Assembly: GCA_003140855.1 (NCBI GenBank)
Contig: PLLF01000070.1
Location: 1-64,000, forward strand
Length of the DNA stretch: 64,000 nt
Source: Vulcanimicrobiota bacterium
GTDB taxonomy: Bacteria > Vulcanimicrobiota > Vulcanimicrobiia > Vulcanimicrobiales > Vulcanimicrobiaceae
Reading direction: 5' to 3'
Shown: piece after piece, positions 15,008 to 62,615 of the stretch
Layout: every line of letters starts with the position of its first letter
Position numbering within the stretch: the first letter of the stretch is position 1
Translations under genes and position numbers: made by a program
Notes under the pieces: model-generated
The model's input: only the letters and a program-made list of their open reading frames with translations
What the model was told of the DNA's origin: nothing
The model's database searches: none

Positions 15008-15526
15008 ATGGAGCAGGTCTACCTCGTCGCCGGCACGTCGGCCGCGCAAAGCCGAGTCGAAGCGCTCGTTCGCGAGCATCAGACCAAGCTCGCGCGTTAC
15101 GTGCGCCGGATGGTCGGAGATGCGGACGTCGCGCTCGACATAGCACAGGACGTTTTCTTCAGCGCGTACCGCACGCTCCAACGCGAGCCGGAACGTCCGC
15201 TAACCGCGGGCTGGCTCTACAAGACCGCGACGAATACGGCCATCTCTTATCTGCGCAGGAAGAAGATCTTGCGCTTCATGTCCCTCGATCGGGAACACGA
15301 CGTGCGCTCGCTGCGCATCGACGAACGCAGCGCGGCCTCGATCGATCTGCAAGCGGCGATGCGCCGCCTGCCGGCGGAACAAGCCGCCGCGATTATGTTG
15401 ACGAGCTACGCCGGGTACTCGTCGCAGGAAGCTGCGGCGATCCTCGGGACGAGCGCGGATGCGATCCGCCAGCGCGTTTGCCGCGCGCTGCGAACGCTGC
15501 GCGCCGTGATGATGGAAAACGCGTAA
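15008..15526 (+). CDS. ECF-family RNA polymerase sigma factor
   Basis: DVALDIAQDVFFSAYRTL (region 2) and RLPAEQAAAIMLTSYAGYSSQEAAAILGTSADAIRQRVCRALRTLR (region 4). Confidence 0.92.
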   Translation: MEQVYLVAGTSAAQSRVEALVREHQTKLARYVRRMVGDADVALDIAQDVFFSAYRTLQREPERPLTAGWLYKTATNTAISYLRRKKILRFMSLDREHDVRSLRIDERSAASIDLQAAMRRLPAEQAAAIMLTSYAGYSSQEAAAILGTSADAIRQRVCRALRTLRAVMMENA

Positions 15527-15536
15527 GGAGAATCTG

Positions 15537-16541
15537 CTGCACAAAGCAATCGAGATCATAGCCGGTGCGATCGCGCTTGGTGAAGCAACCGATGCGGACA
15601 GCCGGAAGTATCGCGAACACATCGCGCTCTGCGCGGAGTGCTTGAGCGAGCTCGGCGGCGAGCACGAGCTCACACGCACCGCTGCGGGCATCGGATCGGC
15701 TCGCGAGAGCGAAGTTTGGAATCCGGAATTGGGGAATGTGTTCCGTCGCCGCGCGCGTGGTCTTTCGCCGGTTGTGCGCTTTGCGGCCGCTTTTGCCGTA
15801 ACGTTCGCGTGTGCTGCCGCCACGCTGCATTATTTCACGCTACCGGTGCGCACTGCCCCCGAGGCTGTAACCGTTGCCACGGCGAGCGCAACCGCGCACC
15901 GCGCAAACGGACCGGCGGCGCCGCAAGGCCAGCGTAAGCTGGTCGTTTACCACAACGTTGTGCAGATCGCGCGCGGTCCGCTCAGCGCCGCGGAATCGGC
16001 GCGCACGGATAATTCACAAGCCCCCGCCAAGCCGTCGGAGATCGCGGCGGTAACCGTATATCCGCAAATCGCGCCGCCGAGCAAGAATCGCGCGAGCATA
16101 CCCGTGTGGCGCGACCCGGTGTGGCGGACCGTATCGAGGATGACGACGACGTCGCTCAGCGAAACCGCGCCGCAACGCGTCAGCAGCGCTGAATCGCTGC
16201 AACTCGGTTCGCAACTCCAGTCGGCAACGACCGACGCCGGCCCGCTCGGCGGTGAGACGGCGATCAATCCGCAGCCGCCGATGATTGCATATTCCGAAGG
16301 CGCCGAAGGCACGACCGCATTCGAAGTATTGATCGACGAACGCGGCACGCCCACGAAGTGCGTCATCACGAAGCCTGCGGGCTACCGCTTTCTTGACGAA
16401 GCGGTTTGCAAGGCTGCAATGAAAGCACGCTATTCGCCCAAGACCGTCGACGGCCGAGCCGTCCCCGGTGTATACCGCGATGCGTTCACTTTCCGCATAA
16501 GTTCCGACGCCAGCGACGGACTGCCCAAACCCATTCATTAG
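15537..16541 (+). CDS. Predicted anti-sigma factor (Hx3Cx2C) with one TM helix and C-terminal TonB-like domain; probable CTG start
   Basis: Frame upstream of the TTG at 15642 reads LLHKAIEIIAGAIALGEATDADSRKYREHIALCAECLSEL (Hx3Cx2C); AAGGAG at 15525-15530; TonB-like GTTAFEVLIDERGTPTKCVITKPAGYRFLDEAVCKAAMKARYSP. Confidence 0.75.
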   Translation: MHKAIEIIAGAIALGEATDADSRKYREHIALCAECLSELGGEHELTRTAAGIGSARESEVWNPELGNVFRRRARGLSPVVRFAAAFAVTFACAAATLHYFTLPVRTAPEAVTVATASATAHRANGPAAPQGQRKLVVYHNVVQIARGPLSAAESARTDNSQAPAKPSEIAAVTVYPQIAPPSKNRASIPVWRDPVWRTVSRMTTTSLSETAPQRVSSAESLQLGSQLQSATTDAGPLGGETAINPQPPMIAYSEGAEGTTAFEVLIDERGTPTKCVITKPAGYRFLDEAVCKAAMKARYSPKTVDGRAVPGVYRDAFTFRISSDASDGLPKPIH

Positions 16542-37652: not shown

Positions 37653-38522
37653 CTGATCCCGTTTTGGTCCTGGCAGCTCCTGGCCGCGCTGCTCATCAAT
37701 GTCGTCATACAAGCAATCCAAATAGGCGCTTACGCTGCCCGCCTTGCGGGAGTTCGCACGGGCCGGATTGCGACGTCAATTTCGCTCTTTAACTTGTTCG
37801 TCATGGCAAGCCGTTTAGCCACGCTTGTCTATACGTTGATGCTGGCGCCGATATCCGACAAAGCCGGCAATGCCGTCAAGGCGCTCATGCTGCACCATCC
37901 GGAGCCGCTGCCTGCAATCGGCGCCGTTCAACATATGTTCGAACTGCAGCTGCGCCTGATCGTCATCGCGGGAACCGTCGGAACGATCCTCGGGAGCCTG
38001 ATACTTCCGATGTTCACCTACCTCTATGTGCGTGGAGTGAGGTCGTTCGAACGAACGAAATCCGTGCCTCACTCGATGGTGCGGCTTTTTTATCCGCGTG
38101 TAATCTTTGACGTCGCTAGACATCTGCGGGTTCCCCACTATCGCGAGATTTTCGCGTTCTCGACGCGCAACATTCCCAGGCGCCTGCTGATTTTTAACGT
38201 CGTCGTGACGGCCGTGTATGCTATTGGCGTGGTTGCTGCCTACTATGCAAGCGTGATCGATGTAAACGTCGCGCGCACAGCCGTCGGCATTTCGGGCGTC
38301 ATAAACGGCATTGGTACGATCGCTTTTACATTTTTTGTCGATCCGACGTCCTCGTTAATTGTGGACGAAGCAGTCAAGGGTGAGCGGCCGCACGAGGAAG
38401 TCAAGTCGATGGTCTTCTATCTATCGCTTACAGCGATCGCGGGATGGCTGCTGTCTCAGCTGTTGCTCTGGCCGGCCGCCTGGCTCATTTCCGCGGTCGC
38501 GCATTTGGTGAATCTTGGCTAA
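37653..38522 (+). CDS. amj: Amj-family lipid II flippase; probable CTG start
   Basis: IPFWSWQLLAALLINVVIQAIQIGAYAARLAGVRTGRIATSISLFNLFVMASR... matches the Amj/YdaH pattern; no in-frame ATG/GTG/TTG before 37794. Confidence 0.8.
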   Translation: MIPFWSWQLLAALLINVVIQAIQIGAYAARLAGVRTGRIATSISLFNLFVMASRLATLVYTLMLAPISDKAGNAVKALMLHHPEPLPAIGAVQHMFELQLRLIVIAGTVGTILGSLILPMFTYLYVRGVRSFERTKSVPHSMVRLFYPRVIFDVARHLRVPHYREIFAFSTRNIPRRLLIFNVVVTAVYAIGVVAAYYASVIDVNVARTAVGISGVINGIGTIAFTFFVDPTSSLIVDEAVKGERPHEEVKSMVFYLSLTAIAGWLLSQLLLWPAAWLISAVAHLVNLG

Positions 38523-62342: not shown

Positions 62343-62615
62343 GTGAAAGAGAAGATTCATCCCAAATGGTATCCCGAGGCCCGCGTGCACTGCGCGTGCG
62401 GCAGCACCTTTACGACCGGATCGACGATTCCGGAGATCGCGGTTGAAATCTGCTCGGCCTGCCATCCGCTCTTCACCGGCCAGCAAAAATTCGTAGATAC
62501 CGCTGGCCGCGTTGACAAATTCCGTCAGCGCGAGCAGATCGCCAAGCGCAAGCAGGAAGAGGCCGCTGCGCGCAAAGCCAAGCGCGAGGCCGAAAAAGCC
62601 GCAGCCGAAGTTTAA
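62343..62615 (+). CDS. rpmE: 50S ribosomal protein L31
   Basis: [60 protein letters not shown]. Confidence 0.95.

Follow-up and report, generated by a model that had tools for sequence, protein, structure and literature searches.

The anti-sigma factor gene that follows an ECF sigma factor gene in the analyzed window, a stretch of 64,000 nucleotides, very probably starts at the CTG codon at position 15537, after a canonical start was lost in the ancestor of two sister species. These are the window genome, a draft of 116 contigs from Candidatus Eremiobacterota (G000), and the genome H17 (G003). In both species the canonical start is gone, and the Shine-Dalgarno sequence, the CTG and the encoded domain are conserved. 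From these sequences we infer initiation at CTG 15537 and its coupling to the sigma gene.

Direct reading of the junction agrees with the original prediction. The sigma gene ends in TAA at position 15526, overlapping an AAGGAG, which is followed by AAT CTG CTG CAC AAA with CTG codons at 15534 and 15537 (Table 1). The anti-sigma frame is open from position 15513 and contains no ATG, GTG or TTG between the stops at 15507-15512 and the TTG at 15642. As likewise predicted, the Hx3Cx2C motif (H 15618, C 15630, C 15639) lies upstream of this first canonical codon, and translation from the TTG would remove the motif completely and with it the putative sigma-binding domain. The absence of a canonical start is by itself weak evidence, since a run of 43 codons without ATG, GTG or TTG is expected about one time in ten, estimated from the ~5% of codons that these three account for in the N-terminal segments of sampled genes. 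The predicted RNA fold at this site was not more stable than that of shuffled sequence (z +0.86). The AAGGAG is able to pair fully, because three genomes of the genus, among them that of the sister species, have GGATCACCTCCTTTCT as their 16S 3' end; the anti-Shine-Dalgarno of the genus is ordinary. Two marks of a CUG start are found here: no ATG, GTG or TTG is able to yield the conserved protein, and the Shine-Dalgarno sequence lies at a functional distance.

Table 1 Positions of the features discussed, as counted in the window.
Feature	Positions	Strand	Evidence or remark
ECF sigma factor gene, 172 aa	15008..15526	+	ATG start, TAA stop 15524-15526; Pfam Sigma70_r2 1.8e-13, Sigma70_r4_2 3e-12
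TGA TGA, nearest in-frame stops upstream in the anti-sigma frame	15507..15512	+	Read from sequence
AAGGAG Shine-Dalgarno	15525..15530	+	Overlaps sigma TAA; complementary to CTCCTT of the 16S 3' end
First CTG, probably not the start	15534..15536	+	CAG in sister species; 3 nt from Shine-Dalgarno
CTG, inferred start codon	15537..15539	+	6 nt after AAGGAG; kept in sister species
Anti-sigma factor gene, 334 codons, putative CTG start to TAG	15537..16541	+	Orthologs and alignment
Predicted anti-sigma N-terminal peptide from CTG 15537			(M)HK[AE]IEIIAGAIALGEATDADSR
Zinc motif HIALCAEC (Hx3Cx2C)	15618..15641	+	H 15618, C 15630, C 15639
TTG, first canonical codon of the anti-sigma frame	15642..15644	+	Leu codon of the domain just after the last Cys, probably not a start
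Predicted membrane helix, residues 78-101	15768..15839	+	AlphaFold helix 78-100/101; hydrophobic stretch
TonB_C domain, C-terminus of anti-sigma factor	16272..16496	+	Pfam PF03544 3.7e-13; NCBIfam TIGR01352 2.9e-10
amj-like gene, no canonical start near N-terminus; tentative candidate CTG 37653	37653..38522	+	Pfam Amj 4.4e-71
rpmE-like gene	62343..62615	+	Identified by eye; TAA stop directly before prfA, same frame
prfA (release factor 1), inferred CTG start right after TAA	62616..63701	+	Pfam PCRF 1.9e-71, RF-1 2e-41

Of 99 genomes of the family, 34 have an ortholog of the anti-sigma gene (E<=1e-25), and 29 of the junctions were readable at the level of codons. An ATG, GTG or TTG lies within -12 to 0 nt of the position of CTG 15534 in 27 of them (15 GTG, 7 ATG and 5 TTG if the candidate farthest upstream is taken), so that the candidate is a weak start, GTG or TTG, in 20 of these 27 relatives. 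In most of the 27 junctions the canonical start overlaps the sigma stop as NTGA. The only two junctions without a canonical start are those of the window genome and its sister species, whose anti-sigma proteins are 90% identical. That 27 of 29 orthologs have a canonical start at the same place and the other two have none lifts the observation above chance. The offset from the sigma to the anti-sigma frame is 2 in five other members of the genus (G001, G002, G004, G005 and G006) and 1 in G000 and G003. The alignment therefore suggests a one-base shift of the junction in the common ancestor of the two sister species, which would have taken the former overlapping start out of the reading frame.

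The AAGGAG and CTG 15537 are identical in the sister species, and position 15534 is CAG there and CTG in the window genome. This refines the original prediction of a CTG start, which the orthologs support: the second of the two CTG codons is the likely start, because of the CAG in the sister species and because its spacing from the Shine-Dalgarno sequence is better. Initiation at some other near-cognate codon, either CTG 15534 or an ATC or ATA further in (15549, 15555, 15558), is very unlikely. All of these codons lie in frame in the same short interval, and other candidate genes of the genus look as if they start with ATT or GTA; however, 15534 sits only 3 nt from the Shine-Dalgarno sequence and is not kept in the sister species, and the ATC and ATA codons are at least 18 nt from it and would remove part of helix 1. 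A sequencing or assembly error in this metagenome-assembled genome is hardly conceivable, even though the genome is a draft whose infC copy contains Ns, because the sister species, an independent and separately assembled genome, has the same frame offset, Shine-Dalgarno sequence and CTG.

The stretch from 15537 to 15641 behaves as translated protein, as supported by its conservation within the family. The pattern GAxALxEA...YRxHxxxC is kept in 29 of 29 orthologs with the motif histidine and first cysteine invariant, and the second cysteine is present in every translated ortholog. None of the 29 uses the position of TTG 15642 as a start. The ortholog comparison that had been proposed as a check thus favored the prediction on both counts, as all 29 keep the N-terminal domain. 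The two sister genomes differ in this stretch by neither a stop nor an indel. All 11 conserved N-terminal residues are unchanged between them, for which the chance without constraint is 0.002-0.03, depending on the dS used, and the N-terminal domain has accumulated 5 amino-acid changes, against an expectation of 10-17 for an unconstrained sequence (P 0.0005-0.07, depending on the synonymous rate used). For the N-terminal stretch alone, 5 nonsynonymous and 3 synonymous differences do not reject neutrality (binomial P 0.28), and the evidence for constraint from this pair is moderate, because the ratio of so short a stretch is not significant. Against the sister species, dN/dS is 0.07 for the sigma gene and 0.22 for the rest of the anti-sigma gene, indicating constraint on both. 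The absence of stops and indels and the retention of family-invariant residues also argue against the possibility, named beforehand as a route to refutation, that the frame between 15537 and 15642 is untranslated.

These data bear on translation from TTG 15642, by which the membrane protein of the two sister species would lack the sigma-binding domain and the upstream stretch would be a decaying relic. We consider this most improbable. In its favor, no canonical codon precedes this TTG in the frame, a GGAG lies a few bases upstream of it, and R22, nearly invariant in the family, is replaced in the window genome. Yet many relatives with a clear upstream start have TTG for the same leucine, neither species shows a stop or frameshift, all conserved domain residues have been kept since the split, and a sigma gene under strong constraint would lose its inhibitor.

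A sigma/anti-sigma fusion, with no separate start, would result if ribosomes shifted by +1 close to the sigma stop (at GCG TAA or GCT TAA, upstream of the AAGGAG). The open anti-sigma frame could be entered by a shift just before the TAA, and a change of frame at a stop that is followed by a strong Shine-Dalgarno-like sequence is a known arrangement. Nonetheless, the two species share no slippery sequence at the stop (GCG TAA in one, GCT TAA in the other), and the Shine-Dalgarno sequence here lies downstream of the putative shift site, whereas known recoding stimulators lie upstream of it. All relatives, moreover, encode two separate proteins, and such a fusion appears highly improbable. Both a start at TTG 15642 and a frameshift fusion were rejected on the ortholog and conservation data.

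Initiation at CTG 15537 could have arisen from the usual state in the family, in which an ATG, GTG or TTG start overlaps the sigma stop as NTGA. With such a 4-base overlap, ribosomes ending the sigma gene would restart on the anti-sigma gene, a mechanism suggested by the arrangement seen in the sequence. Following the one-base shift, initiation presumably moved ~15 bases downstream to the CTG, helped by an AAGGAG at an ideal distance. The sigma stop precedes this CTG by ten bases, with the strong Shine-Dalgarno sequence in between, and ribosomes terminating there probably maintain coupling by reinitiation. Initiation complexes on CUG are weaker than those on AUG, GUG or UUG (PMC11497404), and because of this lower stability a lower, IF3-sensitive output of the anti-sigma factor is expected; this might amount to a new setting of the sigma/anti-sigma ratio, or the CTG start might simply be tolerated. 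Tolerance may be partly lineage-wide, since other genes of the genus appear to have CTG starts.

The initiation machinery of the genus was inspected for peculiarities. An altered initiator tRNA was rejected, as the GGGCTCATAACCC stem-loop is normal in five further genomes of the genus and G006 has a normal fMet tRNA; the copy in the window genome is masked or cut by Ns. Likewise, a missing or broken IF3 was rejected: the factor is present in the genus, and the stop in the window genome's copy comes from an assembly gap of Ns. This infC gene (L241, contig C28:10001-13500) is interrupted by the Ns, and a naive search reports the gap as a stop codon. With both the initiator tRNA and IF3 seemingly ordinary in the genus, no special machinery accounts for the use of CTG; this counts against a CTG start, as do the weakness of CUG complexes and the rarity of CUG switches.

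The product of the gene should be a membrane-anchored class I anti-sigma factor, whose zinc domain is predicted to hold the sigma factor. The gene lies directly behind that of an ECF sigma factor and encodes Hx3Cx2C in its N-terminal domain, two features of class I (ASDI/ZAS) proteins. The domain was described beforehand as ZAS-like. Of the orthologs, 29 of 29 match Pfam zf-HC2 at E<=1 (best 1.6e-6); this single protein scores 12.7-18.7 bits, with 18.7 for the first 38 residues, below the cut-off of 22.2. The class I fold is a three-helix bundle with a fourth helix; AlphaFold modeling of the first 102 residues predicts helices at 2-13, 19-38, 41-58 and 78-101, with a pLDDT of about 80-90 for the first 40 residues; the full-length model is poor (mean pLDDT 39.7). 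A Foldseek search with the N-terminal model gave no significant match; its top ranks (E 2-6, not significant) include 5wuq (RsiW), 8z6g and 6in7 (MucA) and 3hug (RslA). The best sequence match in the PDB is 3hug_B (RslA, E 0.17). Zinc binding and sigma inhibition by the N-terminal domain are predicted from sequence. The initial description as an anti-sigma factor was supported and is extended here by the transmembrane helix and the C-terminal TonB_C domain. The latter lies outside the predicted membrane helix and is conserved in orthologs; a targeted literature search found no paper in which TonB_C is combined with an anti-sigma factor.

To look at CTG starts elsewhere in the genus, we surveyed ~265 coding ortholog pairs, comparing 437 kb of the window genome with 1.6 Mb of G006, to find genes in which coding conservation extends beyond the first canonical start in the upstream direction. 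Many raw flags were shadow frames or overlaps with neighboring genes and were discarded by eye. CTG starts seem to recur in at least four sampled genes besides the anti-sigma gene. For prfA, the order rpmE, stop, CTG is found in all 7 genomes of the genus (TAA in six, TAG in one, never TGA), and the readable N-terminus contains no canonical start in any of the 7; at 23 of 23 loci from other genera, an ATG, TTG or GTG is available at that place. The rpmE-like gene and prfA share one frame and are separated by a single stop, which release factor 1 (RF1) itself reads. RF1 might be made by reinitiation at the CTG or by read-through of the rpmE stop, and since it reads the stop preceding its own gene, its production could be self-regulating.

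In phoH (contig C19:74831; L261:1501), GGGAG is followed by CTG in 6 of 6 genomes of the genus, and a CTG aligns at the same place in three other genera (G012, G007 and G017). A conserved gene on contig C49 shows TAAGGAG, a variable 6-base spacer and then CTG (6/6), and tmk has GTG in the window genome and CTG in G006. The evidence is weaker for CTG in lepB and amj, for ATT in a glycosyltransferase gene and for GTA in a glycolipid-synthase-like gene. The murI gene (contig C56:39561, minus strand, in L165), likewise a weaker candidate, has ATT in the window genome where G006 has GTG; a start at the following canonical codon would remove the FDSGLGG motif. The other readable zinc anti-sigma junctions of the window genome (L061, L065, L066) have canonical starts available, giving no sign of a sigma-linked CTG habit. 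Sites combining a Shine-Dalgarno sequence with CTG showed no codon-wide enrichment in N-terminal windows beyond the individual cases, and a control survey of another genus gave 0 flags in a small sample of only 26 gene pairs. That CTG serves as a regular fourth start codon in this genus of Eremiobacterota, perhaps in the whole family, alongside occasional ATT and GTA starts and with relaxed start discrimination, is a tentative reading that we find possible but somewhat doubtful; besides the anti-sigma gene, it would include the core genes prfA, phoH and tmk and possibly lepB and amj.

A recoding candidate came up on contig C49. A peroxiredoxin gene (C49:32941-32943; L163:12941-12943) has TGA at the position of the peroxidatic cysteine (KDDTPG-TGA-TSEGSQFRD) in both the window genome and G006. 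With the TGA read as cysteine, both halves fall into a single AhpC-TSA match (2.2e-34), and a stable hairpin lies 3' of the TGA (z -2.6). The gene is likely to encode a selenoprotein, for which it is a candidate from its sequence.

The series of orthologs around the two sister soil bacteria is a natural record in which a one-base shift probably cost a gene its start and a CTG next to a strong Shine-Dalgarno sequence took over. Because gene finders look for ATG, GTG and TTG, they would cut off the sigma-binding domain of the anti-sigma factor or leave out the N-terminal ends of RF1, PhoH and thymidylate kinase. If CTG does serve as a fourth start codon, the starts of a few percent of the genes in the phylum are misplaced by standard gene finders. 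Should CTG starts be as frequent in the phylum as our sample suggests, it would offer a system for studying the stringency of start-codon selection in bacteria, and the anti-sigma case poses the question of whether a weak start is used for tuning the sigma/anti-sigma ratio.

A natural ATT or ATC start is found in infC, the gene for IF3, which is autoregulated and encodes a translation fidelity factor with direct feedback. The present gene would resemble infC as a bacterial gene with a natural near-cognate start that is kept by selection, but differs from it in that no feedback is evident. In a survey of start-codon switches in prokaryotes (Belinky et al. 2017, PMC5622118), those to CUG are very rare, with 1 for 2,468 ancestral UUG starts and 4 in the total of about 69,000 starts that were reconstructed. 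As in those switches, a CUG appears to replace a canonical start within a lineage and a strong Shine-Dalgarno sequence is a possible compensation; compared with that handful of CUG starts, at least 5 genes in our small sample of one genus appear to be CTG-started. With the class I anti-sigma factors RsrA, ChrR, RslA and RsiW (Casas-Pastor et al. 2020, PMC7406223), the product shares an N-terminal helical Hx3Cx2C domain, a position behind an ECF sigma gene and one predicted membrane helix. Unlike them it carries a C-terminal TonB_C domain, and the word TonB is absent from the text of that survey (PMC7406223).

The closest parallel is the sigR-rsrA pair of Streptomyces, in which the GTC start of sigR was shown experimentally to be repressed by IF3 (Feeney et al. 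2017, PMC5472188). Both cases concern a noncanonical start in a cotranscribed pair of ECF sigma factor and zinc anti-sigma factor, although ours is read from sequence only. In sigR-rsrA the ratio of the two proteins depends on the strength of the start and on incomplete coupling, to which the present pair may be likened. There, the odd start lies on sigR and leaves the anti-sigma factor in excess (PMC5472188); here, in contrast, the sigma gene has an ATG and the anti-sigma gene a probable CTG, which would shift the balance toward the sigma factor instead.
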